A DNA stretch of 46,085 bases from Parietichytrium sp. I65-24A. Lineage: Eukaryota; Sar; Bigyra; Thraustochytrida; Thraustochytriidae. Below are positions 4,147 to 40,296 of the stretch, piece after piece. The stretch lies in assembly GCA_012862575.1 (NCBI GenBank), contig BLSF01000131.1, positions 1-46,085 of the forward strand, written 5' to 3'. Positions within the stretch are counted from its first letter, which is position 1. Each line of letters starts with the position of its first letter. Under the pieces are notes generated by a model. The model saw nothing but the letters and a program-made list of their open reading frames with translations. It was not told the DNA's origin and made no database searches. The translations under genes and the position numbers were made by a program.

Positions 4147-4160
4147 ATTGACTGTGAGTG
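4147..4160 (-). promoter_or_regulatory. Dispersed motif, copy 1 (core CTCACAGTCAAT)
   Basis: ATTGACTGTGAGTG on the plus strand, one mismatch from the 12-base core shared by five other sites in the window. It lies 157 bp upstream of the tetraspan start. Function unknown. Confidence 0.4.
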
Positions 4161-4213
4161 GCATGCAGATGGAACACCGCTAGTGTATTCCCTAATTCGA
4201 TGAATCCATCGGT

Positions 4214-4271
4214 CGAATTCAGTCGAATTCAGTTCTGAATTGTCAATTGTCAAATTCTGAATTCTGAATTT
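4214..4271. repeat. Imperfect direct and inverted GAATTC repeat
   Basis: Short units of TCGAATTCAG are followed by TTCTGAATT and CAATTGTCAAATT units. Direct copies and reverse complements are interleaved, so the stretch could fold into hairpins. It lies in the tetraspan 5' region. Confidence 0.6.
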
Positions 4272-4750
4272 CGCTAGCAACTAGCACAAAGCTCAACATA
4301 TAAGATTCGGTTCAAGCGCCAATACAAATGACTTGAGCTGTACAAAACCACAACTGCCGCGGCAAGCGACTCACTGTCAGGATCTCGTTCATTTGCATGC
4401 GTTTGTTTGTGCGACTTCTGAAAAAGTGTAAGGCGGTGTACTCTGAACCCTGGTCCTAATCTCAAATGGTAGAGGCCGCTAATGTTATTCTTTCAACTTA
4501 GGTTTTTCTAATCGGAAAAACCAAAAAGAAAGCGATTTGCTCAAGTATTCGCAGCGATCAAGTGCGGAGTACCACTCGAATACTCGAGCGCCAGGGCAGT
4601 TCCAGCAATCTGAAACCTGAAAGAGAATAATCGATTCGGATGGTGCTTTCAGTGAACACAATCAGTGCATTCTCTTTCTCTCCTTCATCCCTTCACTGCT
4701 CTGAATTACCTGAGCCGAATTTTCGCTTACCGAAATTAGTAACTAGTAGT

Positions 4751-4854
4751 TACCGGTACCGGTACGTAAGACTCTGACACCCCAGGTTAGTAATGTTATC
4801 GTTTTACATGTTCATCAAATCATCTACATCATGATGTGAGTAACGGTACCGGTA
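4751..4854. repeat. Palindromic GGTACC/ACCGGT clusters
   Basis: TACCGGTACCGGTAC at 4751-4765 and ACGGTACCGGTAA at 4842-4854. The unit is self-complementary and recurs in other head-to-head intervals of the window. Confidence 0.7.
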
Positions 4855-5490
4855 ATGTGAGTCGGCACTCGAAGAACAAAATAGAACAACTTCACTTATA
4901 ACCTGTTCTGATGTTACGTATTATTTAGATGACGCTGCTACTCGAGTACTAGGTCCGAGTACTAGGTCGATGGACATGTGTGTGAAGCGTGTGTGAATCT
5001 CATTGACTATGAATATTGATTTTGATGTGAACATTGTGAACTGAGTTGGTGGAGTCAGGCTGCGACAAGCCAAGAACTTGAAATTCAACACATCCTAGCT
5101 CCTCTCGAGCAGTCATCGCAGAGAGCTTGCGGCGGCATGCCACAGTGTACATAGATAGGCCCAGCAAAATCACCGGACTCGCTCATTCACGTTGGCGCTG
5201 CAAAACCAGCAAAATGCGATCCATCGCACATCCCTCTTCGAATCAATCTAGACTAGAGTAGCCAAGTTGATCTAGGGGACACAAAGCGTTGAGAGAAAGG
5301 GTGGAAGAAGTGTGTGCACGAACTTACCAGTGTCTATCTGCCAAGTATGGCAGACTCAGTAGAAAGAAGCTGTTGCCTGCGCTATGATGCGCTATGGAAG
5401 ATGACAAGGGGCATTACCAGAACAGTAAAATCGATCGGACGTTGCAGGAAGGGTTGCGAGGCCACACACGTGCGCGAATAAAGGCAGAGA

Positions 5491-6838
5491 ATGGCGAGAC
5501 TGAGCGTAAAAGTTGACGACGGGTCGATGACGACGTCCACGCCGCACGAGAGGTTTGTGCGCGACTGGGGCAAGACCGAGGTGCCTGTGGAGGTGAGGCT
5601 GATCTACTGCAGGTACATTGCAGATGTGTCCACTGTGGAGTCCACGTTCAAAGTGGCCATGGGGTTTGACATGGTATGGCCCGCCACCTCGGCAGACGTG
5701 GCCAGTTGGAAAAAGAGCCCGAAGGAATTTGTCCCTCATTTTGTGCCGCTGTGGGAGTACCCCAATGCCAAAGAGGAGGTGGTGGAGCCCCGGCCCCAGG
5801 AAAATGGAAACCCATTCAAGATTGAGGTCATTGACGGCGAGAATTTTAATTTTGTGCGGAAACTTGTGTATCTGACATGCATGCAAACCCTTCAGTTGCG
5901 CAAGTTTCCCTTTGACTGCCAAGACCTCACCGTCTACATGGACATGTCTTTCAACACGGTTGAGAAGGCGATGTTTGTCCCGGGGCGAGGGTCACTCTCG
6001 GACGACGGCGCGACGCTCGGGGATTCTTCCATTTTAATCCTCAACCGCCAATTCTCTGCTGTGCCGGAGTTTTCCTGTCGCCGTGTGGTCGTCGAGTTCG
6101 CCTCACGCTCTTCCGATGGAGACGAAGGAAAGGACGAGAATGCATTTCGCTGGTCTCAGATCGTTATCCGGTTTCAAGTGGAGCGCAAGAGTGAAGGGTA
6201 CCTGTGGCGCATTGGATTTCTCTGTTTTCTCCTTTCGATGACTTCCATTGCGGTTTTTTCTTTGGACCCTGTCGAAGATCTGTAAGTTTGCTCGATGCTC
6301 TTTGAAGTGCCGCAGCGGATTCCCACACTTTTTTTCCGGTTTCGCTAATGTGTTTCTTTGTTAAAATAGGTCGGATCGTATCAACTATCTGATTACTCTG
6401 GTGCTTGCCGCCACTGCGTTCCAGTACTTGGTATCCCAGTACATTCCGCAGGTGCCGTATCTGACGCTGCTTGACATCTATACCCTCGCAGTCTTCACTG
6501 CGACTGTGATTCTCCTTGCTCTTGTTGCCTTGGTCGGAGGCAAAATGGTGCAAGACGAGGACCTTCGAAGCACCATGGACTTTTATTTGTTTATCGGGTA
6601 CATCAGTTTCTTGTTCTTGGTCCAAGTCAGCTTCGTCGCAGGGGGTTACTTTGCGAAGCGCAGGGAAATAGAAAAACTCACTTATGGCTCACAAAAGCTC
6701 ACGAACATCGGCACTGACGTAAGCGACGATACGCCGATATCGATCAGCGGAAAAGGCTTGTTGCCAGAGTCACAAAAAATTCCCAAGAAAGCCAGAAATG
6801 CCTTTGTGTCATTTCAGGGGAAAGCAAAAACGCACTAG
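5491..6838 (+). CDS. Pentameric ligand-gated ion channel subunit (two exons)
   Basis: Model join(5491..6281, 6370..6838), intron GTAAGT..AATAG of 88 nt, gives 419 residues. The N-terminal half is a beta-rich ligand-binding domain with the family signature KFPFDCQDL. M1 begins near YLWRIGFL; M2 and M3 lie in exon 2, with the diagnostic VPYLTLLDIY at the M2-M3 junction; M4 follows near DFYLFIGYISF; a short basic tail ends the protein. Known family members open a cation or anion pore on agonist binding. The canonical Cys-loop is absent: the position normally held by the second Cys after FPFDxQ is Leu, as in bacterial Cys-less channels such as GLIC. No signal peptide is visible at the chosen ATG, so a short upstream exon may be missing. 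The gene is tail-to-tail with the ABC1 kinase gene. Ligand and ion selectivity are unknown. Confidence 0.88.
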
Positions 6839-7260: not shown

Positions 7261-10200
7261 TCAATAAGCCGCCCCAGACCCAGATCGCAAAATTGCCCCC
7301 CAACCATACTTTTGCAGAACCTTGTCACGTAAGCGCGGAAAGTGAGGCGACGAGGAAATAGAGCGCAAAAGAGCTTGATAGTTGGAAGTCACAAATTGCT
7401 CGAATAGGACGCGAACGTCGCGGTCAAGTTTCCCATCCACGCGGACAGCGTGCTCTCGCAAAGTGGTGTTTGTGCTCTCAAGTGCAACAAGAGCGAGTTC
7501 AACACTTGCCCATAGGCTCGTTCCCTGCAGCTTGTACTTTCGCATGATCGAGTCCAAGTCATGAACGGTCGCATTCACATCCCAATTCTTGTTGTTCGAA
7601 TAGTTCTTTTCAAGCGAAGGTATCATGTCCGCGCAAAATCTCTCCTTGACTCCGGGCTCAGAAAACACCTCTTCTCCATTCTCCACAAAACTCTCGCAAT
7701 ACACATCCAGAGCGATGTCGAATTGACCCGAAAGAGCTGCCACAAAAAATGTGGTAAACTTGACCCGGTCTTCCTCCTCGAGCTCGCCAACTAAACCAAA
7801 ATCGACAAGCGTCATGCGACCGTTCTCTTTCGGATCCAAAAAGATGTTTCCAGGGTGCAAATCACAGTGAAAAATCCCATCCACGAACGCGCTACGAAGA
7901 AAATAGTGGCCGAGTCTCATCGCAAGCACTTCAGGAGGAATGCCGACTTCCATAGCTCTCGCGGCAGGAAGCTGGTTTTCAATGAGCTCCATCGTCAGAA
8001 CATTTCGTGTAGTAACAAGCGAATACACTCGCGGAAAGCGAGGGATGCGATACAATTCGCCAGTGTGTGTTTCACTCGCGCGCTGCATGGCCATGATGCT
8101 TGCAGCCTCCAACATCATATCCGTCTGACACAAAACCAGCGCATAAATTCGACGAGTTCGCTGCTGCAGGGCCGAGCTCCGAATGAGACTACTCGAGAGA
8201 ATTACATTCACAATGTTTAAAACTTTCCGCAAGCCGCCGCGAATAGAGTGCCGGACCACTTTGACGGCAACCTTGGAGCCGCCATTTACGAGTTTGGCAC
8301 GGTGAACCTGTGCAATAGTACCAGAAGCAATGGGGACCATATCAAATTCCTCAAATATGTGCGAGCGGTCTCTGCCAAAAGAATGTTCCAGTTCCAGCTC
8401 TAGTTCGTGTCGAGACATTGGTGGCACGTTCTCACGAAGAACTTGCAATTTGTTAGTGACATGCTGATCGAGCAAATCCGGTCGACTCGACAAAATTTGA
8501 GCAATTTTGTGGATTGTAGGGTTGTTGATCCACAAAACTGATTTCAAGATGCAGTGCGCCCTATAGTCCAAAAAAGACGGTGGTGAACTTGAGCGAGGGA
8601 AGCACACGCCTCCAAAGCGACTCCGCGCCACGCGGTTTCTACACGCGATGGCCACAAAACCGAGCGGGCGCATCAGAAACCACCAAAAGAACACGACGGC
8701 GACAATCTTGACAACGACAAATGACAACGCGATCCATCTTTTCAGAGCTCTAAAAGGTGTAAGCACCCAGCGGCCCAATGTGAGCAGACCCAAGATGGCG
8801 TAGCGAAAGCTGACATTCCGGACGATCGGTGTGGAGACCTCCAAGGCTCCGGCCGCGCGAAGGTGCCGCCTGACGCTCGTCAATGTCTCCACTACTTCGG
8901 CACGAACCAAATCGTCTCCAGCCTTGGTTGGGCTCTCGCACATCCAGTGGCTGACTTGCGATGATGCACCAATAAGCCTGTTGAGTCTTTCGAGAGCAGA
9001 TTCGGCGGCAACGTCCAGCTCTCCAGCAGCGCACCCTGCAGTAACAAGCTGCTCCACTGTCTTTCCAAAATAGTACAATGAATGAATCCGTGGGGAATAT
9101 CTCCCGTCTCCGCTTCCAACCAATCTGAAAAAGGCGCCTGGTCCAAGCCTCTCCCATTCCAGCCTTTCTTCAACATGACGCCAAAGACCAGCCACAGCTA
9201 CCGCAAGCGGTGACTCCATCTGCAAAGTGCGTGCGTTGACACTGGCGCCCTGTCCCAAGAGATACTTTACAAGGTGCATGTGGCCATTGTAGGCTGCAAA
9301 ATGGAGACAATTCCACTGCGCCAACGAGTCCCTTGCGTCTACCCACAACGGCTCGCGCTGCACAAAGTCATAGATGAAACCCAAATCGCCGCGAACGCAG
9401 CCCTCAAAGAACTTTTGGCGCACCATCTCACAGTAATCGGGTTGAAAATCACCACGAAATATGAACGGCGAGAGCATCAGGCGACCTGGGAGGGCCTGAT
9501 TCTCGTAGCCAAGAGAAGATTGCTGAGCATCGCCTCCAAATCCAGACGCGCTGTCGGAAGCCCCGCTGTGTACACTCCTATTCGCGCAACTTGTAGACAG
9601 AGACGGAATGGCTTGGCGCGGATTCTGTGAAACGCTCGCCACTGAGTGTGCTCGCTGTACGGTGGACTGATGCTGCTGCTTTGGAAATGTGCTGTTTCGC
9701 ACAGCAAGCACCCCATACCGTCTTACAGTGGGCAGCATGTACACATCTTCGTAGGGGTCACTCTGGACCGTGGCGACCAGGCGATCCAGCGAAAAACCAA
9801 GGCCCCTAACAGCCTTCAAAGCTTCCCGCATGTCGTTTGGCTCCATGTAGGGTTCTCGGGAGCATATGTACACCCCTGTCTGTTTCCGCCCCTTGCGTGG
9901 GGATGATGCATGAGAGGCTTCGTCAGCCGAGCGCACGGGGCAGAGAATAATCCACCTGTGATCTCGACCGCAGTGCGTCACACGAACCTCAAAAGAGACG
10001 GTCATGAGTCCGTTAAATACACGCATTGTCCATGTCAGGCGGTCGGGCCCTGATATGTACGCTCGGCCGGAGTTGAATGCTCGTGTTCGCTGTGTGGACA
10101 GGAAATTCTGCTTGTAGCAACTTGCAGCCAGGTCCATGGTCCCGTCGGCCATGAGCGTGAAGTCAATCGAATTGTTTGTGCTCCAGCTAATCATCCGGAG

Positions 10201-10416
10201 CAGTGAGCCTTGAATCGAGGCAATCTCGTACCAGCGTCCTGCATACCATTCTCCGACGAGATTCTCCTCCGCCGACCTGGCCCGTGTGGCCGCTTGCCTC
10301 CTGGCCTTCCTATTTGCGCATTCTGGGTCCCGTCGGAACAATATCCACACAGAGGCGCACACCATCAAACAAAACAAGATACCTTGCAACACCGCGGCTC
10401 CAACCGGGGCGTCCAT
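7261..10416 (-). CDS. Lipocalin - ankyrin - ABC1/ADCK (UbiB-type) kinase fusion
   Basis: A 1051-residue intronless protein. In order: an N-terminal membrane anchor (about 6-27); a lipocalin-like domain with the GRWYEIA signature at 60-66 that runs to about 230; a Ser-rich linker; an ankyrin-like segment near 366-400; a second hydrophobic stretch near 562-592; then an atypical ABC1/UbiB kinase domain from about 610. Visible kinase features are VAVKV (ATP-binding Lys), QTDMMLEA, DLHPGN (catalytic loop, about 852) and DFG (about 871). The family's inhibitory KxGQ motif reads KIAQ (about 636), and the Ala-rich loop reads ASGTIAQVH rather than AAASIGQVH. Family members support coenzyme Q and lipid metabolism in mitochondria or plastids. 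A lipocalin fused to the kinase suggests direct binding of a lipid ligand, which is inference. The first in-frame ATG is 10416. Confidence 0.88.
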   Translation of the reverse strand: MDAPVGAAVLQGILFCLMVCASVWILFRRDPECANRKARRQAATRARSAEENLVGEWYAGRWYEIASIQGSLLRMISWSTNNSIDFTLMADGTMDLAASCYKQNFLSTQRTRAFNSGRAYISGPDRLTWTMRVFNGLMTVSFEVRVTHCGRDHRWIILCPVRSADEASHASSPRKGRKQTGVYICSREPYMEPNDMREALKAVRGLGFSLDRLVATVQSDPYEDVYMLPTVRRYGVLAVRNSTFPKQQHQSTVQRAHSVASVSQNPRQAIPSLSTSCANRSVHSGASDSASGFGGDAQQSSLGYENQALPGRLMLSPFIFRGDFQPDYCEMVRQKFFEGCVRGDLGFIYDFVQREPLWVDARDSLAQWNCLHFAAYNGHMHLVKYLLGQGASVNARTLQMESPLAVAVAGLWRHVEERLEWERLGPGAFFRLVGSGDGRYSPRIHSLYYFGKTVEQLVTAGCAAGELDVAAESALERLNRLIGASSQVSHWMCESPTKAGDDLVRAEVVETLTSVRRHLRAAGALEVSTPIVRNVSFRYAILGLLTLGRWVLTPFRALKRWIALSFVVVKIVAVVFFWWFLMRPLGFVAIACRNRVARSRFGGVCFPRSSSPPSFLDYRAHCILKSVLWINNPTIHKIAQILSSRPDLLDQHVTNKLQVLRENVPPMSRHELELELEHSFGRDRSHIFEEFDMVPIASGTIAQVHRAKLVNGGSKVAVKVVRHSIRGGLRKVLNIVNVILSSSLIRSSALQQRTRRIYALVLCQTDMMLEAASIMAMQRASETHTGELYRIPRFPRVYSLVTTRNVLTMELIENQLPAARAMEVGIPPEVLAMRLGHYFLRSAFVDGIFHCDLHPGNIFLDPKENGRMTLVDFGLVGELEEEDRVKFTTFFVAALSGQFDIALDVYCESFVENGEEVFSEPGVKERFCADMIPSLEKNYSNNKNWDVNATVHDLDSIMRKYKLQGTSLWASVELALVALESTNTTLREHAVRVDGKLDRDVRVLFEQFVTSNYQALLRSISSSPHFPRLRDKVLQKYGWGAILRSGSGAAY

Positions 10417-10436
10417 CACTCGCTGCTCCGGGCCTA

Positions 10437-10498
10437 GCCGCGCTGCTGCTGCTGCTGTGTACTGCACACAACAACAACAACAACAAAGACAACAAACG
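10437..10498. repeat. GCT and AAC trinucleotide repeats
   Basis: A short (GCT)n run, then an (AAC)n run, in the presumed 5' UTR or promoter of the kinase gene. They are out of the chosen coding region. Confidence 0.8.
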
Positions 10499-11324
10499 AC
10501 AGCAACGCTTAATCAACCTGCCGAGCGCAGAGCCCCAAACCGACAAGTTGGCAGCACCAAAAGCACGACACCCCAAACAAAGTCTACTCCGAAAGACGCA
10601 CGCCACGCCCACACACAATCTCTCTACGCTCTTCAAGCCCTCAAATTCGTGCAGCAGTCAAATCTGTTCGCACTTTTCATCCCTTATCCGCCGTGCCTCA
10701 ACTTTCTCTTGCCCGCGCGCCAGCGCCAGGTCCGCTATTGCAAATTCGCGGATGCGCGGACGATGTGCGTGCCTCTGATACGGGACGCGCGGACCCCGCG
10801 CACTCCCCGAGAAACGGTTCCGCAAAATGGACGCCCCCCTGTCCCCGTGTGTTTCTGTCTCTCTGTTTCTGTCTCGCTTGTCTTTCGCAACATTCCCAAC
10901 TCTGAAAGTACTTGTACTCTTATGCGAGCAGCTATGAAGCGCTAGACTCCCACGCTTCTCCGCAGCAATTGGCCCTGGCTAGGGTAAAGTGTAGAACCTC
11001 TGTACCAGCTACTAGAAGGGAGAGTGGTTGGACTGTATGGTTAGGTCACGGTTGCAGCTCATGACGTCAGCAGCATTGTAGTAAGAATCTAATGGATATT
11101 AGAATGATGACGCTAATGTGCACAGAAGGGAATGATTTGTTTTGATTACCGTACAATTAATAGTGATTACACATATGGATCAAATTCGACATGCGGTGAG
11201 GCTACACTTCACACTTATTGGTACTACCGGTACCGGTATTACAAGCCAGTGGTCAAGAGGAACATTTCTCTTGTTCGAGAACCATTCTCTCATTCGCGAT
11301 CTTGGTCTGTTCATCTGTTCAATT

Positions 11325-11347
11325 TACCGGTACCGGTACCGGTACCG
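11325..11347. repeat. Longest GGTACC/ACCGGT palindromic run
   Basis: Nearly four units of the self-complementary hexamer, able to extrude as a hairpin. Shorter versions occur at 4751, 4842, 11225, 11753, 18824 and 45825. Confidence 0.85.
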
Positions 11348-11703
11348 AGTTCAGTGAGCAGGTGTTGAATGCTTTCGCATGAGAGCAAAACCCCCTTCTC
11401 AGATGAAAGATATTGCTCACAACGTTGAAAGTCAAGAAACCATCCATTGACAGCGACTTCCAAACAATCGCATAGGCAAAATAATTAATTCGTTCCCACC
11501 TTTCCAATCGGTGAATGAGAAGACATGGGGCAGACATGCGCATACATGCCTCACTCGATTCGCGGCGGCGCAGGAAGCCTCGGACGGACATGAAACGGGC
11601 ACCACTGCTGGCCGTCCCTGAGCAAGTAGCACGATCAGTCCGCATTTCGGGGGCAAATCCACCCTCGCCGACATCGTGTGCGGCTCTTCAGGAATTTCTC
11701 CTT

Positions 11704-11720
11704 GTACTGACAGTGAGTAC
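11704..11720 (-). promoter_or_regulatory. Dispersed motif, copy 2
   Basis: GTACTGACAGTGAGTAC, one mismatch from the core and flanked by GTAC on both sides. It lies about 400 bp upstream of the first SDR copy. Confidence 0.45.
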
Positions 11721-11769
11721 TGGTACTACAAACCTTGATCAAGTTTGAGTAAGTACCGGTACAGTGCAT

Positions 11770-13009
11770 TACACACAACTACGAGTACACACTCGGGAAA
11801 AACGAAAATTGCCTGCTAGGCAATCTTGTCTATGAATCACCAGAGACAGTGTGCTTGACGTGAGCGCACGGCGAAAAGAAGGATTTGCCTTCTCATTGTC
11901 GAGTACTTCGAATATTGTGCGGAGTGAGCAAGACATGGACAGAAGAGATGAACTTGCAAGTGCTGACTGTTGAGTACTCTGGCGCAAATGTCAGTCGCTG
12001 CAGACCCGAAACTTGGCGATAGACAGTCAAACACACAAAAAGAAAGAGCGTTGCTTTGAAACCTGAACTCTGAACCCAAGACAGGTACCGCTTGGTAGCA
12101 CAAACAAATATGGGAAACTCAGGCTCCAGTTCCAAAAACAAGAGCAAGAAGATGAAGGTCTTCGTCACTGGTGCCAGCGGATGGGTTGGAAGCAAGGTCA
12201 CCCAGATACTCGTTGAGCAGGGACATCAAGTCACTGGTCTCGCGCGCTCAGACAAGTCCGCTGCTCGCGTCGAGAGCCTCGGCGCGAAGGCTGTGCGCGG
12301 AGGTCTCCTGGACCTGGACGTCATCAAGGCTGCCTGCAAGGACGCAGACGCAGTCATTCACACTGCATTCGACCACGACTTCAGCAAATNCTACACACAA
12401 TTACAAGTACACACTCGGGAAAAACGAAAATTGCCTGCTAAGCAATCTTGTCTATGAATCACCAGAGACAGTGCTTGACGTGAGCGCACGGCGAAAAGAA
12501 GGATTTGCCTTCTCATTGTCGATACTTCGAATATTGTGCGGAGTGAGCAAGACATGGACAGAAGAGTTGAACTTGCAAGTGCTGACTGTTGAGTACTCTG
12601 GCGCAAAAGTCAGTCGCTGCAGACCCGAAACTTGGCGATAGACAGTCAAACACACAAAAAGAAAGAGCGTTGCTTTGAAACCTGAACTCTGAACCCAAGA
12701 CAGGTACCGCTTGGTAGCACAAACAAATATGGGAAACTCAGGCTCCAGTTCCAAAAACAAGAGCAAGAAGATGAAGGTCTTCGTCACTGGTGCCAGCGGA
12801 TGGGTTGGAAGCAAGGTCACCCAGAGACTCGTTGAGCAGGGACATCAAGTCACTGGTCTCGCGCGCTCAGACAAGTCCGCTGCTCGCGTCGAGAGCCTCG
12901 GCGCGAAGGCTGTGCGCGGAGGTCTCCTGGACTTGGACGTCATCAAGGCTGCATGCAAGGACGCAGACGCGGTCATTCACACCGCATTCGACCACGACTT
13001 CAGCAACTA
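11770..13009 (+). repeat. Tandem duplication of SDR 5' region and first coding third
   Basis: Bases 11770-12389 and 12392-13009 are near-identical direct copies separated by a single N. They carry small differences, such as a 2-base and a 1-base deletion in the second copy. Both include about 340 bp of upstream sequence and the start of the SDR gene. The single N marks a contig join, so the duplication may be partly an assembly effect. Confidence 0.85.
12110..12389 (+). pseudogene. Truncated SDR copy 1 (5' fragment)
   Basis: The first 93 codons of the same NAD(P)-binding reductase as the gene at 12729. They begin with the MGNSGSS leader and the TGASGWVGS nucleotide-binding loop, then stop at the N of base 12390, after which the upstream region of copy 2 begins. 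The last bases (CAGCAAAT) match copy 3 rather than copy 2, and several silent differences separate it from both, so it is a real third sequence rather than a simple echo. Whether the gene is truly cut or its end is lost in an unsized gap cannot be told. Confidence 0.7.
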
Positions 13010-18827: not shown

Positions 18828-18843
18828 GTGAGTTCTCACTTAA
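18828..18843 (-). promoter_or_regulatory. Dispersed motif, copy 4
   Basis: GGTACTGACTGTGAGT, an exact 12-base core, directly abutting the palindromic GTACCGGTAC. Confidence 0.45.
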
Positions 18844-29653: not shown

Positions 29654-29700
29654 GAGAACCCGAGAACCCGAGAACCCGAGAACCCGAGAACCCAAGAACA
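29654..29700 (+). repeat. GAGAACCC minisatellite
   Basis: Five direct copies of an 8-bp unit, decaying into AAGAACCC-like units to about 29720. Related arrays occur at 30049, 38160 and 42401. Confidence 0.9.
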
Positions 29701-30048: not shown

Positions 30049-30112
30049 GAGAACCAAGTACCAAGAACCAAGAATCTCGAGAACCGAGAACTGACTGTGA
30101 GAACCGTGAACC
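30049..30112 (+). repeat. Degenerate GAGAACC array
   Basis: Imperfect AGAACC units, interrupted by one copy of the dispersed ACTGACTGTGAG core. Confidence 0.7.
30090..30101 (-). promoter_or_regulatory. Dispersed motif, copy 6
   Basis: ACTGACTGTGAG, an exact 12-base core, but without the GTAC flanks and embedded in the GAGAACC array. Confidence 0.4.
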
Positions 30113-30289
30113 TTGCCATTACCGATACTATTACATGTCCTAGTACGACAAGAAACTCATCACACACCCCCAAGACCCTAGCGTAAGTGGTAATCAGGCT
30201 AGGTTTGCTCTACCCTCTCACGAGATGTGACGAGATTAGAAAAAAGAAAAACGAAAAAAGAAAAAGAGAGAGAGAACAGTGGAGCGAGC

Positions 30290-30304
30290 ACTCACAGTCA
30301 GTAC
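30290..30304 (+). promoter_or_regulatory. Dispersed motif, copy 7
   Basis: ACTCACAGTCAGTAC, an exact core, 157 bp upstream of the LRR gene start and followed by TGAGTACTGAGTGTAC. Confidence 0.45.
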
Positions 30305-30461
30305 TGAGTACTGAGTGTACAAGGAGATCCAACTTCGAAGTGCTTCGTATACTTGGTGTTTGCAGAGAGGCGTTGCGCGCAAAGGGTTCCGGAGAGCACC
30401 CAGCACCCAGCACACCTTCCTATGGGTGTTGCTTGCGCCAGCAGTCTGAGAGGTGACAAAG

Positions 30462-33400
30462 ATGGGCAAATACACAGAGATTAAGGTGGCTGGCGTCGAG
30501 TCCACAGTCTGGGCCGCGGAAACGCTGGACGAAGGGCTTGAAGCAGCGGGCCGGGAAGATGCCGTGTGGTGAGTCGGTTGTTTATTTGCTGAGTGCCAGA
30601 GAGAAAGTAGTGAAATGAGTTCCCTGAAATGAGTTGACTTGGTTTCACAGGTTTGGGTGGCCTGACGCGGAGTTTGGATTGAAGATGGGGCCGAGGCAAG
30701 CGGAAAAGATCGCCTTGGCAATCAATGGGAACAAAACGCTTCGAAAGGCTGTGTAAGTGAATAGTTCGGACAATGGCTTTGAGGAAACTTACTTTCGCGA
30801 CGAAGTTTTGTATTTAACTCTGGAGACATTCTTGTGACATTGTCGTGTTCTTGGAAATAGTCTAGTCGAAAACAAGATTGGCGACGAAGGAGCATCAGCG
30901 ATTGGTCTTGCGTTGGAGCGAAACACTGTGCTGACTGTGTTGGAGTACGTGCGACTTTGACGCCGATTTTGTGAAACAAGTTAAACACTTGTCTATGCTC
31001 TGGAGCTGACACTATCTTGCTGCGTTTCTTTCTTGAAATAGTCTTCGGCAAAATGGAATCGGCGTTGAAGGAGCAACAGCGATTGGTCGCGCGCTTGAGA
31101 AGAACGCTGTGCTGACTTTTTTGGGGTACGTGCGACTTTATGATACCGGTTTCGTGAAAGAAGTTAGCCTTTCTTTTTTTTCTTTTTTTTGTGATTTGCG
31201 GCTGACAGTTTCATTTCTTTTTCGGGAAAAGCCTTGGATTAAACGACATTTGTGCTGGAGGAGCATCAATGATTGGTACGGCGTTGGAGAGGAACACTGT
31301 GCTGACCTCCTTGGAGTACGAATGGTTTTGACACCAATTTTGTGAAAGAAGGAATTTTTAGACCTTGTCCATGCTGTGCAGCTGACAATCTCTTGTCGAA
31401 TTTCTGGGAATAGGCTTGGTGCAAATCAAATTGGGATTGAAGGAGCATCAGCTATTGGTCGCGCGCTGGAGAAGAATGCTGTGCTGACGTCTTTGGAGTA
31501 CGTGTGACTTTGGCACCAGTTTCGTGAAAAACGTTAGCCCTCCGCGCTGTGCGGCTGACAAATTGTTGTCGCATTTCTGGAAACAGTCTTGTCGCAAATG
31601 AAATTGGCGCTGGAGGAGGATCAGCGATTGGTCGCGCGTTGGAAAAGAACACTGCGCTGAGGGTTTTAGAGTACGTGCTTAGGCTTACGGTTCGTGATAT
31701 ACTCAATTTCCTTGACAGACCTTGTTCGTGCTTGGTGGTTGACGGTTCCATGTCTTCTTAATTAATAGTCTTTGGGACAACAATATTGGCGCTGAAGGTG
31801 CATCAGCGATCGGTCTTGCGTTGGAGAAGAACACTGCGCTTACCTTTTTGGAGTACGAGCGGCATTGACACCAGGTTCGTGAATGGAAGTTAGACCTCAT
31901 TTGTGCTTTGTAGTTAACAATTTCTTCTCTTTCTTGAAAATAGTCTTGGAAGGAATGAAATTGGTGCTGAAGGAGCAATAGCGATTGGCTGCGCATTGGA
32001 AAAGTGCACTGCGCTGACTTTCTTGTCGTACGTGCGAGTTTGACTTCTTTCTTGTGGAATACTTCAGAACCTTACTGAACGGTCTCCTGCTTTGCGGCTG
32101 GCGCGATTTCTTGCCGCTTCCCAAAATAACCTTCCTTACAATAACATTGGCGCTGAAGGTGCATCAGCGGGTGTGTGGTTTCTGACGATATTTTTCTCCC
32201 TCTTGAAATTAGGCTTGGAAAGAACGAAATCAACGCTAAAGGGGCATCAGCGATTGGCCTTGCGTTGGAGAGGAACGCTACCCTCGTATCTTTGAAGTGA
32301 GTGTGGCTCTGACAAAGGTCAACAAGCTCATAAACTTGTTTGACGCCGTTTTTCTTTGGTAGCTAACAATTTCATGACTTTTCTGCAAACAGCCTTTCAC
32401 GCAATGGAATTGGCACTGAAGGAGGATCAGCGATCGGTGTTGCTTTAGAAAAGAATGCTTCGCTGACTTCCTTGAAGTACGTGTGACTTTGACACACCTT
32501 CGGGAAATATTGCCGAAATTGTTTTTGCTTTGCGATTGACAATTTCATGTATCTTCTGGAAACAGTCTTGAAGTGAATGACATTCTTGATGAAGGCGGAT
32601 CAGCGATCGGCCGCGCATTGGAGAAGAACACTGCGCTGGCGTCCTTGAAGTACGTGTGACGTTGGCCCCGGCTTTGTGAAATATTGCCGAATTTGATCGT
32701 GCTTTGCGACTGATAACAAGATATCATTTTCTGCGAATAGTCTATCTGCGAATAGTGTTGGCGATAAAGGAGCACAAGCAATCGGTCTTGCGTTGAACAA
32801 GAACACTGTGCTGACGTCCCTGAAGTAGGTCTGACGTAGGACCCGGTTCCGCGTATTACTTCAACACATTTAACTGAATCTGTTCGTGCTTTGCGGCTGA
32901 CAATTATATTGGTTTTCTGCAAATAGTCTCGGAAGGAATGGAATCAGTGCTGAAGGAGCATCAGCGATCGGCCGCGCGTTGGAGGAGAACATTGCGCTGA
33001 CTTCTTTGAAGTACGTTTGACTTTGACACCGGCTTCGTTAAGAAGTTACGCAACCTTACGACCTTTTTTCTTGCTTTGTGGGTAATAATTTCTTGTCTTC
33101 TGGAAACAGTTTTCGAGGGAATGCAACTGGCACTGAAGGAACATCAGCAATCGCTTTTGCGTTGGAGAAGAATATTGCCCTGACTCAATTGGAGTATGTG
33201 TCACAGTGACTTCAGTTTCGTGAAAGGGGTTACGTTTCTTTACGTGCATAGGCGTGCTTTGTGGCTGACAATATCTTGCATCTCTGGAAACAGTCTTCAA
33301 GGGAATCGAATTGGTGTTGAAGGAGTATCAGCGCTCGCTCTTGCGTTGGAGAAGAACACTGCGCTGACTTCCTTGTCGTACGTGTGGCTTTGGGACCGGT

Positions 33401-33742
33401 CTGGTGTAAGAAGTTGAGAAGCACCTTTATGGCTGACGGTCTGGAGTTGTTTCTTAATCTTAATTAGTCTGCAGTTCAATCGGATTGGCGCTGACGGAGC
33501 GTCAGCGATCGCTCGCGCGTTGGAGAAGAACACTGCGCTGACGTCATTGAAGTACGTGTCTTTTTTTACACCGGTTTGGCACCTTGCCAAACTTTCTCGT
33601 TCTTTATGGCTGATGGTTTTATGCTTTGTTGTAATGAAATAGCCTTTATGGTAATTTGATTCTTGATGGCAAACAATTATTATCAGCGATCAATCGAGCG
33701 CTGCATAAGAACACCTTGCGAACTAATTTGGAGCCCTTGTAG
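30462..33742 (+). CDS. LRR (ribonuclease-inhibitor type) protein, one 28-residue repeat per exon
   Basis: Exons: 30462-30568, 30651-30752, then 30861-30944, 31042-31125, 31232-31315, 31414-31497, 31587-31670, 31769-31852, 31944-32027, 32213-32296, 32393-32476, 32566-32649, 32741-32824, 32927-33010, 33110-33193, 33294-33377, 33468-33551, and 33643-33742. This gives 522 residues in frame to a TAG. The fifteen middle exons are each exactly 84 nt, in the same phase, and encode one repeat of the form LxxNxIGxEGASAIGxALEKNTALTSL, the RI/NLRC3-like leucine-rich repeat. The first two exons encode a 70-residue N-cap; the last encodes a degenerate repeat. No kinase, NACHT or membrane segment is seen. 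Such solenoids bind proteins; the partner is unknown. Donors are mostly GTACGT and acceptors are AATAG or AACAG. Tail-to-tail with the glycosidase-like gene. Confidence 0.9.
30861..33642 (+). repeat. Tandem exon-plus-intron units, about 173-190 bp
   Basis: Not only the 84-nt exons but also the introns are similar: GTACGTG(T/C)GACTTTGACxCC at the start and GCGGCTGACAATTTC about 30 to 40 bases before the acceptor. Whole exon-intron units were therefore duplicated. The CTGAC inside the conserved block is a plausible branch point. Confidence 0.9.
32130..32170 (+). pseudogene. Decayed LRR exon
   Basis: About 13 codons of the usual repeat (NNIGAEGASA core) survive. The expected AG acceptor reads AA, and the second half of the exon together with the first half of the following intron is deleted. 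Keeping it would break the frame, so it is best read as part of the intron 32028-32212. Confidence 0.8.
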
Positions 33743-34008
33743 TTTTGACGCCGGATCTCAGCCGTTCAACGCAAGCTGTCTCCAAAGCCACCTTAAATAA
33801 TGTAAAGTGACAAACCCCACTGATGGACCAATGCCTGGAGCTGGCTGTCGCCTTTTGACGCATAGTTTCCTTGACCTTTAGGTCGTGAGAGTTGAGAAGA
33901 GTCCTGTGTGCAGGCGAAAAGGAAGGTATTGACAAGAAACGAGGCATAAAAAAAGAAAGAAAGAAAGAGTGATATGCGTCAAAAGACTCACGCAACTTTT
34001 ATGAACTG

Positions 34009-36627
34009 CTATTGTCGAGAGGCGCTGCATGCGAGGGATTCGGAGCTAAAGAATGCAACCCCTCCATCGGGAATCTCGCAAGATATGTCGTGGTACTCCC
34101 CGTTTGGGTGTTTCACCATGAGTTGCACCACCTCGGAGACAGCACCATGCACCTGAACGCCGAATCCGAGGTCGCTTACTCTCAGCTGTGAAAAACGGTC
34201 ATTGCTTATTGGCACCCACTTGGTGGTGGCTTCGCCAAGAAATGCCCATCCACCGGGTAATACAGGAGCAATACTATACACCTTGAAGTTGACTCGATCC
34301 GATGGCGGAACTTCAACTGGAAGGCTTAGTGGTTGAAACGGAACATCGAGCTCCCATGCCACGTAGTCTTCAACTTCCATGGCACTAGCGTGTAAATCGC
34401 TCTTTGAAAGCGCAAACGCTGGGCTTGACGCCGACAGATAGATGGAAAAAGTGTATCCAGCCATGCGCGTGAAGGTTGTCCACACTTGATCCCCGTGCTG
34501 GTCTTCAAGACTAGTCTGTGAGCCAGCCCTGAGGAACGATTCGGCGTTGCCGAGGTCTTGAAGGCCGACCTGAGAGAAGAAGGTTTTATCTGTTCGCACG
34601 GCTGGCGCATCGGGGCGCAGCAGTTTGCCATCTTGTGCGCAGGACCGAAGAATGAGTGCCTTATCAAGATTTTCCATCTTATCAGATGGTGCTACTGGGC
34701 CGGTAGACAAGCTGGACACCAAGGCGTGGAGCCTGCTTGCTGGCTCGGACCGTCCGTTGTATCGATCAGGAAAGCTAACGTTTGGGGTCGACCAAAAGTT
34801 GTCTTTTGTTGGCGTGAGGTCGAGGGCCTGCGCAAACATACTGGTGACGCCGACATCGCGCCAGTTGTCGAGGCTGGGACAGTAATCATCTGAAGCACGA
34901 ACTTGGGTCACAGCAGGAGCTTCTAGAGACTGCATGATCTGACGCGGGAGAGCCATGCAGAATTGAATATTGATATTGTGAATTTCTGCGGCTCTTCCGA
35001 GCTGCATGACCCACGTTCGCCCAAGGTCAATGTCCTCCAATAGAGGCGGAAAATTTTCAAACTGGATGTTGAGCCAGTCCTGCTCGTAGACCGTGAGTCC
35101 CCACTTTTTGGCGTCCAGGAAGAGGTCTTCCCAAAACGACTGTTCCACGGGAAGAGCGTAGTCCCCTGAAATCAAAAACTTGTAGTTTCCACCGTTTTGT
35201 TCGGCGTACACATTATTTGCGGACCAGTATCTATTGTGCGCCACGACCTCCCAACCAGTCGCTTCTGTCAGGAAGTTGATGCCCTGCGGGAAGATGTTTG
35301 GCATCGCGCTCCAGTTCTTGACACCCGCTGCGGAACCTTTGTCTGTTCAATGTGGCAGATGGGTTTTTACAATTACAAAAGGTCAGTTCAGTGAGCAAGC
35401 GTGAACGAAAAAACGAACGAACAACAAAGAACATGGCCCTGGACCTTCAACAAAACTTACAATACCACCAGGAATCCATCAACCATTGCCGGAACGGAAT
35501 CCCTGCCGCGTCGGCATAGTCCTTGACGGCAAGGATTGTGTCCTCGTAGTTGAGGCCTTGCTCAGTGTGGTAGTAATAGTAGGCGCCGTTGTCCGTGGAA
35601 AATTGCAGATACTCGAGGGTGATGTCTCGAGCGCGCTTGAGGGAATACATTTTCTTCAAAATGCGGCCCCAATGTAGCATCGCCCTTCTGATCCCATCAG
35701 GGGCTCCGTCGAGTGCAGTTGCTGTCACGATCGTATCCGCGGTGTGCCCCTTGGGAACAGAGGTTACCGAGCCCATGACCCCAAATCCGAGCTCGTTCTT
35801 GGTTCTATCAAACATGCTGGCTGACGACATGAACGAGTTTGCCGGAGAAAACACTACTGCGCACTTTGTGGAGAAAATCACCGCAGGCCCACTCTCGTGA
35901 GCATCCAGAGCCTCCAGGTTGTTGTCGAGTTTTGTGATTTTGTAATGCGTCCCCGTCATGAACCCATGATAACGTAGGATCCCACGTGGAATGTCCTGTA
36001 TATTCTCCCACCGGAAAGCAGGGAACCAGCTCGCCATCCCGGTCTTGCCGCTCTCCCTAGCAGAGCTGGCAGGAAACTGCGTCTTCTGCAAATCGGTCAG
36101 AAACCGTTGTCCAAACACGATGGCATTCGAGCCCTTGTAGCTTCTCTGCACGAGCTCCCACTCCCGTGATTCATCAGCCGACAGCGGGAACACCTGTCTC
36201 TGCTCCTCGAACTCGCCCACATTGTCGGAGCCTGTCACCGCACACTCAAGTTAGCAAACAACCCGTGCGAAGCCCCATCTCATTCCCCATGTCCACTTTC
36301 CCCCATGGCATCAACCATGAACCATCAACCATGAACCATGCATCATGAACCATCATGAATCATGCATCATGAACCATCAACCATCAACCATGAACATCGA
36401 TCCATCCACGTACCTCTCGTCTTTTCAGATTCAAAAAGCCTCTTCAGGTCTGAGTTGCACCACTCATCCTCGTCGCTCCTCGCGCAGGCGTCTCCCAGCG
36501 CTAGCCACGCCTCTTCGTCCACGTACAATTTGCCGTCGTCTCGCACCTCCACTTGGCACGCCCCCAGCGCCCTCCCAACGCTAGCCGCGGCTACCAGAAT
36601 TACTAAGGTCCGCCGTCCTGCGCGCAT
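34009..36627 (-). CDS. Secreted glycoside-hydrolase-like protein (three exons)
   Basis: Model on the minus strand: 36627..36414, 36231..35461, 35342..34009, with introns GTACGT..GACAG and GTAAGT..AACAG; 772 residues in frame throughout. Exon 1 encodes a signal peptide (TLVILVAAASVGRALG) and a Cys-containing N-terminus. The joined second and third exons restore the block SWWYYKGSAAGVKNW across the splice. The centre has STDNGAYYYYHTE, aromatic- and acid-rich stretches (EQDWLNIQF, GRAAEIHNINIQFCMALPR) and alternating strand-helix patterns expected of a TIM-barrel glycosidase. The C-terminal 200 residues look beta-rich. I cannot name the family or the catalytic acids with confidence, and hydrolase activity is an inference. 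The gene is convergent with the LRR gene. Confidence 0.78.
36302..36396. repeat. CATGAACCATCA repeat inside intron 1
   Basis: Imperfect ACCATCAACCATGAACC units fill much of the first intron of the glycosidase-like gene. Several ATGs occur on both strands but no long frame results. Confidence 0.85.
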
Positions 36628-37273
36628 CGTGTTCTCCCCAGCAGATTTACAGATGCACGGTTACCTAGCGAGGACACTTTGCTACGTGGTCCTTGCAATG
36701 CCACTGGTACTCGACAGTCTCGACAGAAACGGTTCTCTTTTCGTTCACTGTTAGTGTCCTGGATGCCGTATTGTGTAGGAGTTGCGTTGGCACCCCCAGT
36801 GGGACTCTTCGGAGACAAATCCGCAGAAATCATGATGAAGATCTTGTGTGGGGTGATTTTGCGAAAGCAAAGAGATAGATTTCCCTGCTTGCTTTTTTAT
36901 GTTGCGAGGTGGACTATTGTGTTCTGTGGACCATCAGACCCGTGGAAAAACATCTGTTGTGCAATTGTGGAGTGTTGCCTTTCTCTCTGTGAACTTTATA
37001 CTTTAGCCTAACGAGAGCTCTTAATCGGTGAATACTTGCGTAGTAGCAATGACCTAACAGGAGGATTAAGAAAATGGACTCTACGATGAAAGCTTATAGT
37101 GTTATTAGCACATGGCATTTTACCCATACTCCTATCCTTCCCACTATCGAGTCCAATAGAAGAGACCTAGTTGGAATGGAGCAATGTATTCGTGTAGCTA
37201 GCTACTAATATACCTGTTTAGTTAGAAAGCGAGACTACGGGACTCTTGAAACTCTTGGGACGCTTCGATTACT

Positions 37274-37290
37274 GTACTGACTGTAAGTAA
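37274..37290 (-). promoter_or_regulatory. Dispersed motif, copy 8
   Basis: GTACTGACTGTAAGTAA, one mismatch from the core, about 0.9 kb upstream of the BPL_N-like gene. Confidence 0.4.
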
Positions 37291-37903
37291 CTTACTAGTA
37301 GTGTATCATCGACATCGACTCGATTGCTCTCAGGAAGAGACACGCTTTTTGAGCTGACATGTACTGACAGTTGATCAGTAGATTGGGCTCTGACAGGGAA
37401 CAATTTTAGTTTTGGATTTAAAACTTAACGTTTTAAATCTACCAGTGCCTACAACCAAAGCTTTACACGTACAAAAATATTACCTTGAACTCAACTCAAT
37501 CAAACAGATCAAAACAATTGCGAAAAATTGAACAGTTCTCCGATCTATGAAACTAATGATATGCACTAGCAAAGGCGCCCACACTAACCAGTCGCCTAAT
37601 CCAACCCTACTCAACCCAAATCGTACTCACCACCGGCCGCCTATCGCTTTCGCTAACCCATCCTAACCCGCTCCTCTACCGCCGCGCTACGCTGCACTAC
37701 GCGACATTTCCTGCGCCCTCCGCCACCGCACGGCGCGTCCACCTCGAGGCCTACCATTCGCCTAACCACCGTACTATCCTGGCCAACAGCTCCGGGCCGG
37801 CGGCGGTCGTAGCAGAGCACCCAAGCATTTGAAAAGGACTGGCACACACAATCAATCAAAGAGACAGCGAGACAAAAAAAGAAAGAAAAGAGAGAGAATT
37901 TAC

Positions 37904-37905
<2 letters not shown>

Positions 37906-37937
<32 letters not shown>
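37906..37937 (+). repeat. (GA)n microsatellite
   Basis: About 16 uninterrupted GA dinucleotides upstream of the BPL_N-like gene, near another GA tract. Confidence 0.95.
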
Positions 37938-37940: not shown

Positions 37941-38182
37941 CATACGGCGGGGACAGGCGCGCCGCGTACGCACAAGTACGCTCCGGCCGTTGCGGGAAAG
38001 GGAAGAAGGGCGCGCGCCGTCGCAGAGCCTCGCACTCTATCGCGGAGTCGCGTGAGGAAGAGGCGAGAAGGGATCCTTTCTGCTCTGCTCAGTTGAGATC
38101 AGGTTCGGAGCGGACACGGAGAACCGGCGCGAGGAGGGAAGGAGGGAAGGAGGGAAGGAGAACCCAAGAACTCAGGAACCGG

Positions 38183-39778
38183 ATGGAGAACCGGATGGAG
38201 AACCGGGACGACGCGGACGGCCAGTGGCAGAACCTGGCCGCGGACACTCGTTCCAAGCTGAAGGTGTTCCGCGAAAGTTCCCGCAACTCTCTGGAGGAAC
38301 TGCGCGAGTCCGCGGACGGCGCGCTCAAGTCCGTCTGGGTCGGCGCGGCTACCTTCAAGCCTAGCAACCGGCTATGGGTCCTCGCGACCGCCGCGCTGGT
38401 GGGCATGGTCTACCTGTTCGCCGTAGCGTCCGTGCTAACACCGGTGGACCGGCAGGCGCGCATGGGCGCGGTGCTGACGTCACCGCGTTACTCTTACCGC
38501 GGGGGCCTATCGGGGCTAGGCGGGGGGCCGCTCTCTGACGAGGACGAGGAGGCGCACGTGCCGATGAAAGGCGCACTGGTGTACCCGCAGTCGAAGCTGA
38601 ACCCTCTGGTGAAGGAGACGCCGCTGGTAGGGCTGGATAGCGGCAAGGCGTACGACCCGAAGAAGGTGCGGTTCCTGGCGCAGACGCGGTGGCCCATCCG
38701 GGTGGCGCTGTATAACGGATTCGGCGCGTCGTCGCGGTCGTGGCGGAACATTCGGCGCGTGTTGCGCTGCGCCAGCAACGCCGTCAACGTCACGCTCATC
38801 AAGAAGGCCAACATGAGCACGCTCAACAGGAAGAACTTTGACATCGTCATCATCCCCGGCGGAGAGGCCGGCCGCATGTACGAGTGGCACGACCGCCACC
38901 ACGCCAGCATGAAGAACGCAATTCGCAACTTTTTGCACAGCGGCGGCGGCTACATGGGCTTCTGCGCCGGCGCATATCTGGCGCGCACGCTGGCCATAAC
39001 GCCGTTTAAGCGCGCGTCTAACACGCTGGGCGTGGGCTGGTTCTCGCAGGTGGAGGCGTCCAAGTGGTTCCTGGACTCGGCAGAGTCGCTGTTCCCAGTG
39101 GACGACAACTCGCTCAACTCGAACAGGCTGTTCTATGCCAACGGACCCATCTTCCAGGAGGCTGGAACCAAGCAGTACCCGTACATGAAGAACCCGCGCG
39201 TGCTGCTGCGCACGGGAAAGCGCGCGCACGTGCACATCGACCACGGCGGCGGGTCTTCGCGGTCGAGGGACATTCACAGAAAGTACTCGGGCTTGCCGGT
39301 GGTCACGTACAATGAGTTCAGCCGCGGCAAGGTGCTGGTGAGCACGGGGCACCCGGAGTCGAACGTGAACAAGGGCGTCAAGTCGTACCAGATTCAGGGA
39401 TCCATGTGCGATTCCAACTGGGCCAACCTCATCCTGGACATGGTCATGCTCGGAACCAACCGCACCGGGTTCTACTCTGTGCTGCACGGAATGGGCGACA
39501 TGAACCCGCCGCGGTCGGCGCCTGTGGTGCTCGATGACGACGAGGTACCGGAGGGAGAGCCCGAGGACACGGACGAAGAAGGGGCCAGCGTCAGCCCTGA
39601 TCCCGCCGACACGATTGACTCTGTTGCTGACGATCTTGCCGAGGAGGCCACGGGCCAAGATGAAGATGCGGAGGAGGCGGGATTGGAGGCCGTTGCTGAC
39701 GATCTTGGAGCTGATGACAATGCGGACTTTGTCGACAGCGAGGAGGCTGACGGGGCTAGCCTAGTGGAGGAAAATTAG
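38183..39778 (+). CDS. Membrane-anchored BPL_N / class I glutamine-amidotransferase-like protein
   Basis: A 531-residue intronless protein. A short N-terminal tail is followed by a single hydrophobic anchor near residues 72-93 (LWVLATAALVGMVYLF), giving a type II topology. The body from about 175 to 430 is the flavodoxin-like amidotransferase fold named BPL_N after yeast biotin-protein ligase: DIVIIPGGEAG, then GGGYMGFCAGAYLA with the nucleophile-elbow Cys261, and STGHPE with His390 and Glu392 completing a possible triad. The C-terminal 100 residues are very acidic. No biotin-ligase domain is attached, so the activity is unknown. Two ATGs lie in a 12-bp repeat (GGATGGAGAACC); the first, 38183, was chosen, and the second would remove four residues. 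Tail-to-tail with the LRR-TRAF gene. Confidence 0.82.
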   Translation: MENRMENRDDADGQWQNLAADTRSKLKVFRESSRNSLEELRESADGALKSVWVGAATFKPSNRLWVLATAALVGMVYLFAVASVLTPVDRQARMGAVLTSPRYSYRGGLSGLGGGPLSDEDEEAHVPMKGALVYPQSKLNPLVKETPLVGLDSGKAYDPKKVRFLAQTRWPIRVALYNGFGASSRSWRNIRRVLRCASNAVNVTLIKKANMSTLNRKNFDIVIIPGGEAGRMYEWHDRHHASMKNAIRNFLHSGGGYMGFCAGAYLARTLAITPFKRASNTLGVGWFSQVEASKWFLDSAESLFPVDDNSLNSNRLFYANGPIFQEAGTKQYPYMKNPRVLLRTGKRAHVHIDHGGGSSRSRDIHRKYSGLPVVTYNEFSRGKVLVSTGHPESNVNKGVKSYQIQGSMCDSNWANLILDMVMLGTNRTGFYSVLHGMGDMNPPRSAPVVLDDDEVPEGEPEDTDEEGASVSPDPADTIDSVADDLAEEATGQDEDAEEAGLEAVADDLGADDNADFVDSEEADGASLVEEN

Positions 39779-40224
39779 GCGGGCGACGGGCTGTGCTAAT
39801 GTATTGCGGCTTGGGTTCCCTGCTACAGTGCTACAGCAGCTCGGAAAACGGAATCGATGGTCGGGACGAAAGGCCCGAGCCGCGTTTTCGGTGTTGAGCT
39901 GCCAAACACGGACCGTTGCCGTTTATTTTCGTCGGTCGAGTTTGGGAACGATTTTTGCATTTTTTGGTTTCCAAACTTGGCCTCAGGCGCACGTCGCCTG
40001 GCAAATACGTAGTACATTCGCTGTCTCAAGCTCCTTCTATTTGCATTGAAACGGCGAATGTGGGTTCGATCCAATTATACACTTTGCCGATCGGCACACA
40101 AGCGAAAACTTGTCAGGGGAATTTATTTGTTCTTGTTGAATTCGTTGACCAAAGAAGAGAGGATGTTCAAGCACACTTGTATGTACACGACGTTTACGTG
40201 CAGAAGACGAATACTTTCATAAAC

Positions 40225-40242
40225 TTTTTTTTTTTTTTTTTT
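40225..40242 (+). repeat. Poly(T) run
   Basis: Eighteen T followed by GGTTGTTGTTG. Either a simple microsatellite or the A-tail end of an old retro-insertion on the minus strand. Confidence 0.85.
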
Positions 40243-40277
40243 GGTTGTTGTTGTAATACTACTCGGATTTCGAATAG

Positions 40278-40296
40278 GGTACTCACAGTCAGTACC
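40278..40296 (+). promoter_or_regulatory. Dispersed motif, copy 9 (longest palindromic flanks)
   Basis: GGTACTCACAGTCAGTACC, with GGTAC at one end and GTACC at the other. Exact core. It lies 60 bp beyond the stop of the LRR-TRAF gene. Confidence 0.45.

Follow-up and report, generated by a model that had tools for sequence, protein, structure and literature searches.

Comparing motif counts with those of letter-reversed controls, we found that a short motif of the thraustochytrid Parietichytrium sp. I65-24A is real and genome-wide, and that the site it defines is asymmetric. The pattern of bases suggests, with a probability of about 0.72, a putative double-stranded DNA binding site for one sequence-specific nuclear protein or a pair of such proteins, serving as a transcription-regulatory element at some thousands of intergenic places. 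Judging from this pattern, the binding protein is probably a broadly acting, two-part transcription regulator.

The exact 12-mer CTCACAGTCAGT has 733 copies in the 42.5 Mb genome, compared to 14 copies of the letter-reversed control; allowing A or T (W) at the centre and at most one mismatch, the numbers are 4,305 and 456, respectively. The 15-mer TACTCACWGTCAGTA occurs 538 times, and its control is absent. The genome counts are thus far above random, in agreement with the sequence-only reading, which had noticed the motif as a repeated 12-base core. The core is (C/T)TCAC-W-GTCA(G/A)T, with a spacing of strictly 1 bp and with two unlike half-sites, GTGA and GTCA, reading outward from the central A/T. 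In noncoding DNA, TCAC-N1-GTCA was found 73 times, whereas every other spacer, from 0 to 11, gave 2-12 occurrences. When the flanks of 85 sites were aligned, information was present only at positions -3..+13, corresponding to GTACTCACAGTCAGTAC, and the edges were sharp. Copies with A at the centre are commoner than those with T, and the enriched unit is the asymmetric 12-mer. For a palindrome bound by a homodimer, the symmetric forms are expected to be at least as common as the asymmetric one; the two symmetric versions, both shorter than TACTCACWGTCAGTA, were found in 18 and 16 places (controls, 4 and 5), compared to the 538 occurrences of the longer asymmetric pattern.

The window, i.e., the whole analyzed stretch of 46,085 nucleotides (contig BLSF01000131.1 of assembly GCA_012862575.1), contains 15 matches with up to two mismatches, whereas 100 dinucleotide shuffles averaged 4.27 and never exceeded 10. 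The gene layout of the window was obtained with a home-made coding hidden Markov model (HMM), which called six head-to-head gaps. The five exact and four one-mismatch copies named in the sequence-only reading are all present, some of them at positions shifted by up to 7 bases from those originally given. The gap 4018-5503 holds a one-mismatch copy found by the motif scan (CTCACAGTCAAT, 4147-4158, minus strand), and a weak T-centre copy, CTCACTGTCAGG, lies at 4370-4381 (plus strand), with two mismatches to the core as first read and one to CTCACWGTCAGT. The single copy in the gap 10453-12113 is a T-centre, one-mismatch copy with both arms, GTACTCACTGTCAGTAC (11706-11717, minus strand). Three copies are located in the gap 17957-20992: a one-mismatch copy with the GTAC arm on the left only (18576-18587, minus strand), an exact CTCACAGTCAGT with the arm on the right only (18821-18832, minus strand) and an exact core with both arms, GTACTCACAGTCAGTAC (20205-20216, plus strand). 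The gap 29095-30472 contains two copies on opposite strands, 201 bp apart according to the motif scan and the HMM: an exact core without GTAC arms (30090-30101, minus strand) and an exact core with the right arm that continues into GTACTGAGTACTGAGTGTAC (30291-30302, plus strand). One further copy, with one mismatch (CTTACAGTCAGT, 37276-37287, minus strand), belongs to the gap 36626-37910, and the gap 42082-43881 has no copy. The ninth copy, an exact core with both arms at 40282-40293 (plus strand), lies in a tail-to-tail gap, unlike the other eight; it is part of the full form GGTACTCACAGTCAGTACC (40278-40296), which occurs once in the window, so that the fullest copy is the exception to the head-to-head pattern. 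Therefore, two earlier counts, eight of nine copies in head-to-head gaps and five of six such gaps occupied by one or more of the nine, are borne out by the HMM layout.

The positions of copies relative to genes were studied in 80 of 100 listed exact copies (733 in total); the 20 listed copies left out comprised close neighbors, a copy close to where the list for contig 3 ended, and the majority of the contig 5 copies. The HMM, for which long open frames of the sequences under study served as training data, replaced a coding score based on codon usage alone, which was too weak. Only 2 of the 80 copies were found in predicted coding DNA, where 55% were expected (p = 6e-25); thus, copies in this sample are nearly always between genes, and the scarcity in coding DNA on which the sequence-only reading depended is upheld. 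At looser scores coding DNA does hold matrix matches (7/45 at 12 bits and 1/29 at 14 bits). The proposed concentration in head-to-head promoters, on the other hand, was not established. Because head-to-head gaps make up 55% of the noncoding DNA of the window, the eight of nine copies found there give p = 0.048 only, and this within the discovery window itself. Among the sampled copies with a gene end within 600 bp, the nearest end was 5' in 37 cases and 3' in 17 (expected proportions.485:.358, two-sided p = 0.13), and 40 copies with 1,200-bp flanks gave a 5':3' ratio of 22:12, indistinguishable from that of the noncoding background of the window (3670:1840). In 40 control regions of contigs 1-3, placed at round coordinates rather than drawn at random, and the window together, 21 of 26 matches were in 5' gaps (one-sided p = 0.029); without the window, the figure was 11 of 14 (p = 0.13), below significance. 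It follows that, of the suggestion of a shared promoter element, the shared, far-from-random and intergenic part stands, whereas the head-to-head promoter part is not established. Both upstream regions of one inverted gene duplicate carry a copy; the two are oppositely oriented and lie 5 and 28 bp before a TATAAA. The density of TATAAA and CCAAT near copies was no higher than that in the remaining noncoding DNA.

The GTAC arms are optional, and their bases tend to be jointly present or jointly absent. Among 148 sites, which include 55 later stretches used for arm statistics only, all five arm bases were found in 46 (23 expected), three or fewer in 66, and none or one in 18 (5 expected). This coupling was first observed in 92 sites and then again in 56 new sites. 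Around the 80 focal copies, there were 49 secondary sites of at least 14 bits, compared to 2 for the reversed matrix, with the highest density within 350 bp. On contigs 1-4, exact 12-mers taken by themselves show no clustering at distances under 1 kb (2 gaps versus 1.5 expected); clustering emerges only once weaker sites are counted.

Given the asymmetry of the site, we favor as its reader either a heterodimer or one polypeptide that combines two dissimilar DNA-reading modules (for example, a zinc-finger array or a pair of Myb-like repeats) over a homodimer. Copies with and without arms may represent two binding modes, or a second, GTAC-reading factor may bind together with the first. More tentatively, and with odds clearly against it, the protein could be a lineage-specific genome organizer outside the described regulator families, an obligate heterodimer or two-module chain that would read a 17-bp site via two unlike halves, with an all-or-none GTAC-arm mode separating two functional classes among about four thousand intergenic sites. 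Several observations count against a regulator: the 5' bias is weak (37:17) and vanishes against the noncoding DNA of the window, none of the three tubulin loci examined has a site above 11 bits upstream, coding DNA contains matches at looser scores, a sizeable share of the noncoding copies (24 of 78) is far from predicted coding DNA, and exact 12-mers by themselves are unclustered.

The weak 5' bias would also suit a chromatin or replication landmark, in which the motif would be recognized by a protein that marks origins, boundaries or pairing sites, any link to transcription being incidental. Long noncoding stretches are indeed favored: of the 78 copies in noncoding DNA, 24 have no predicted coding segment within 600 bp (15.7% expected, p = 0.0008), and since the HMM may overlook short exons and atypical genes, this class may include copies close to missed genes. 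However, the 84 exact copies of contigs 1-4 are approximately Poisson-distributed at the 100-kb scale (variance/mean of 0.96 per 100 kb, gap sd/mean of 0.91) and, therefore, have no regular spacing; A/T content is flat around copies, and A7/T7 tracts are no denser nearby. We consider the landmark doubtful. A hairpin in transcribed copies, whose CACAGUC loop an RNA-binding protein would recognize, is improbable. GGUACUCACAGUCAGUACC can form a 6-bp stem with a 7-base loop (-5.2 kcal/mol, z = -2.9), and mirror arm positions are correlated; yet the arms are conserved as letters, the coupling extends to non-mirror arm positions, and the many sites with three or fewer arm bases speak against a stem. 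Where both partners were off consensus, complementarity was not clearly above that of shuffles (13 versus 9.1, p = 0.07; 10 versus 9.6, p = 0.51), and the 37 copies closest to a gene 5' end did not significantly favor either strand (23:14, p = 0.19).

An end of a miniature mobile element, proposed in the sequence-only reading, or its excision footprint, has very little probability. The copies are dispersed, and GTAC on both sides could represent a target duplication, but many copies lack GTAC arms, and the 85 aligned sites carry no information beyond -3..+13. An all-against-all BLAST gave 63 rows at E <= 1e-3 with just two alignments over 60 bp, one of a stretch of the window with itself and one of a duplicated gene, which leaves out the core; apart from these, alignments across the core reached 45 bp at most. 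A mobile element with a shared body was thus rejected, the flanks being alignable on neither side. Least probable of all are splice signals. The reverse strand reads TACTGACWGTGAGTA, so that a branch point TACTGAC adjoins a donor GTGAGT, as in a zero-length-exon or lariat-like junction; this resemblance, parts of which were also noticed earlier, was rejected as a splice signal, as the motif departs from the donor consensus of the genome: among eight intron-like gaps read by eye, seven start with GTAAGT and one with GTACGT, and the motif has A there in approximately 2% of matrix sites. In addition, A-centre copies lack an AG acceptor, and the 1-bp spacing is exact. The RNA-hairpin, splice-signal and landmark readings all fared worse than the binding site.

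To our knowledge, the sequence vocabulary used for gene regulation is poorly known in most protists. The present analysis defines a site to base resolution from sequence alone, including its asymmetry, spacing and arm coupling, and its binding protein could be fished out with it directly. If this protein is a general regulator, the site would provide a testable handle on the promoter architecture of the organism and an example of asymmetric recognition at a nearly palindromic site. Profile searches of the genome, with tubulin as positive control (9 matches), gave no match for chlorophyll-binding LHC or silicon transporters and, for PfaD, no match over the cut-off and 4 weak ones; missing matches are no proof of absence. 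Within these limits, the searches make it unlikely that the genome is that of a photosynthetic organism, of a diatom or of a thraustochytrid possessing PUFA synthase. A terminal 18S fragment is present in the genome sequence, and 7 stretches of viral contigs match the S/W-degenerate 17-mer, a raw count.

Sites of bZIP proteins, i.e., the CRE (TGACGTCA) and AP-1 (TGASTCA), resemble the motif in having inverted GTCA-type half-sites. They differ in that the motif has a spacer of exactly one W, unlike halves GTGA/GTCA and letters that are conserved as far as 8 bases to either side of its middle. In the noncoding DNA used for the spacer counts, there are 3 occurrences of TGAC-N1-GTCA and 6 of the CRE form, close to the 1-5 at other spacings; the half-sites of the motif without a spacer, TCAC-GTCA, occur 7 times, compared to the 73 copies with a spacer of +1. 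Proteins of the bZIP family are encoded in the genome, with 15 bZIP_1 matches, 14 of them above the cut-off; none of them was tied to the motif. The TALE homeodomain site TGACAG is present on one strand of T-centre copies, whereas the commoner A-centre copies read TGACTG and the enriched form is the asymmetric 12-mer. Motif 1, the M1BP element of Drosophila core promoters, is likewise long and asymmetric; it is common to many promoters and has other letters. Among the papers listed, no published description of the motif was found, judging by titles and openings of abstracts, and the passages seen of a study of oomycete factor specificities (PMC11267843) contain no site matching it. The copies share with yeast general regulatory factor sites their many specific intergenic places and near absence from coding DNA, and differ from them in having no A/T tracts alongside. 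In budding yeast, the general regulatory factors Reb1, Abf1 and Rap1 have specific intergenic sites in many places, tied to promoter architecture and directionality; we know of no consensus of these three factors that contains the motif sequence. By analogy with such factors, the predicted protein may act both in promoters and in long regulatory intergenic regions.

The nine copies of the 12-base core, CTCACAGTCAGT, that the sequence-only reading had reported in the window (five exact, four with one mismatch) were all recovered, at equal coordinates or at most 7 bases off; with up to two mismatches allowed, the window holds 15 matches, compared to a mean of 4.27 in 100 dinucleotide shuffles. 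We searched the genome (42,540,916 bases in 172 contigs, the window being contig 131), with the motif letters in backward order as the reversed control. Exact matches to the 12-mer number 733 (375 on one strand, 358 on the other), far above the 14 of the control. Similarly, CTCACWGTCAGT with at most one mismatch occurs 4,305 times versus 456, an excess of about 3,850, and the 15-base form TACTCACWGTCAGTA 538 times versus 0.

An alignment of 85 exact copies, comprising 80 genomic ones (out of 100 matches listed, among 733 in total) and the five of the window, gave the consensus GTACTCACAGTCAGTAC. Information is limited to columns -3 to +13; each column beyond carries 0.2 bits or less, and the background columns average 0.001 bits (sd 0.02). 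The core according to the refined weight matrix is Y-T-C-A-C-W-G-T-C-A-R-T, with both A and T allowed at the centre. The halves are near-palindromic but unlike, reading outward from the centre GTGA on one side and GTCA on the other. Across the noncoding parts of every sampled locus, excluding the copies that seeded the sampling, the asymmetric TCACAGTCA and TCACTGTCA were found 35 and 28 times, and the symmetric TCACWGTGA and TGACWGTCA 7 times and twice. Genome-wide, one symmetric 13-mer occupies 18 places (4 for its reversed control) and the other 16 (5 for its control), whereas the longer asymmetric pattern occupies 538. The TCAC/GTCA pair is enriched at one-base spacing only (73, versus 2 to 12 for any of the other spacings between 0 and 11).

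Gene layout was approximated with a seven-state coding HMM trained on long open frames. Coding segments hold 2 of the 80 sampled copies, whereas they cover 55% of the 40 regions used as controls (p=6e-25), so that the evidence for near-exclusion of the motif from predicted coding DNA is overwhelming and an equal density in coding DNA, which would have spoken against the sequence-only reading, was not observed. A matrix scan of the control regions and the window (at least 14 bits; 29 matches in all) gave 0.79 matches per kb for head-to-head gaps, 0.54 for DNA next to a lone 5' end and 0.32 for DNA next to a lone 3' end; same-strand gaps had 0.29, tail-to-tail gaps 0.20 and coding DNA 0.012. With same-strand gaps and coding DNA excluded, the 5' classes hold 21 of 26 matches (one-sided p=0.029), the discovery window being included in this count; in the control regions alone, they hold 11 matches in 19.5 kb, versus 3 in 12.7 kb for the 3' classes (one-sided p=0.13). 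The nearest gene end is 5' for 37 of the 80 copies and 3' for 17 (two-sided p=0.13), and 24 have no gene end within 600 bp (p=0.0008). For 40 copies with 1,200-bp flanks, the numbers are 22 and 12, resembling the window background (3670 versus 1840). Thus, the reported head-to-head concentration is seen, but largely reflects where noncoding DNA sits, and a promoter bias is suggestive at best.

Within 600 bp of the 80 copies there are 49 additional sites of at least 14 bits, versus 2 with the reversed matrix. These occur in both orientations, and their density per kb of noncoding DNA is highest, at 1.0-1.8, up to a distance of about 350 bp, versus 0.3-1.1 farther out. The 84 exact copies on four contigs spread as by chance at the 100-kb scale (variance/mean 0.96), with no excess of gaps below 1 kb (2 versus 1.5 expected). 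Two sampled loci, L061 and L062 (G000:C2:1105550-1112177, in the source genome), form an inverted gene duplicate, 71% identical over 569 bp. Both upstream regions contain a copy, 5 and 28 bp before TATAAA, and the two copies are oppositely oriented; in this single anecdote, the site was retained while its orientation flipped. Three tubulin loci have no upstream sites above 11 bits.

Across 148 distinct CTCACWGTCAGT sites, coupling is seen among the five bases that flank the core (GTA to its left, AC to its right): all five are present in 46 (23 expected under independence), and none or one in 18 (5 expected). A first set of 92 sites showed the coupling (odds ratio 2.7, p=0.02), and 56 new ones repeated it (odds ratio 4.1, p=0.017). 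It consists in joint presence of the bases; base-pair compensation between the arms showed no clear excess over shuffles. In the 25 bp beyond the edges of the motif, GTAC is denser too (11.7 versus 4.1 per kb). The sites thus seem to fall into armed and armless classes, which do not visibly differ in position relative to genes among the 80 positioned copies.

Within the noncoding DNA sampled, other words stand strongly above their reversed controls: GTACCGGTA (56 versus 0), AATCAATCA (38 versus 1), AGAATTCAG (34 versus 1), ACTCAGTAC (30 versus 3) and ACTAGCTAG (17 versus 1). Several resemble self-complementary units repeated in tandem; an example in the window is GGTACCGGTACC, at 11329-11346. 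Four dispersed occurrences of AGAACACTGCGCTG (31646, 32625, 33353 and 33527) lie in a 3.5-kb stretch of the window (30562-34036) with neither predicted coding DNA nor any of the nine motif copies. The 8-base unit GAACCCGA forms short runs in two separate head-to-head gaps (29656-29693 and 42410-42443). On the minus strand, 7261-10467 is a single open frame with lipocalin-like, ankyrin and ABC1 atypical-kinase domains. Another contig (locus L091, G000:C16) ends in a truncated 18S rRNA 3' end, preceded at a distance of a few hundred bases by what looks by eye like the last part of a copia-type reverse transcriptase/RNase H frame; contig C61 has a second match to the 18S word.

The sharp edges, the fixed spacing, a centre that accepts A or T, the location in noncoding DNA and the weaker copies grouped nearby suggest that the motif is a binding site for a putative protein on double-stranded DNA. 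The end of a mobile element, an option raised from the sequence alone, would be expected to share flanks; neither the 85-copy alignment nor BLAST revealed any, the longest alignment spanning the core being 45 bp, the window self-match aside. The resemblance to a branch point and a donor did not carry over to a splice signal, which would tolerate GTAAGT, the start of 7 of 8 intron-like gaps read by eye; the motif does not tolerate it. An RNA hairpin is energetically possible, but compensatory change is not clear and strand preference is not significant. Because of where the sites lie and how many there are, the most likely binder is a transcription regulator that acts broadly; a role in chromatin or replication is possible.

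Searches with the 12-mer, with its complement and with shorter versions found no description of the motif among the matches listed from the literature covered, which holds few subscription journals and in which logos are not searchable as text; therefore, the motif is probably an undescribed sequence-specific regulatory site of a familiar type, although a markedly asymmetric one. This asymmetry argues for a binder that would be a heterodimer, or a single chain combining two dissimilar modules. Although bZIP proteins are encoded in the genome (15 matches, 14 above the cut-off), the motif does not match an ordinary bZIP site in its spacing, its unlike halves or its length.
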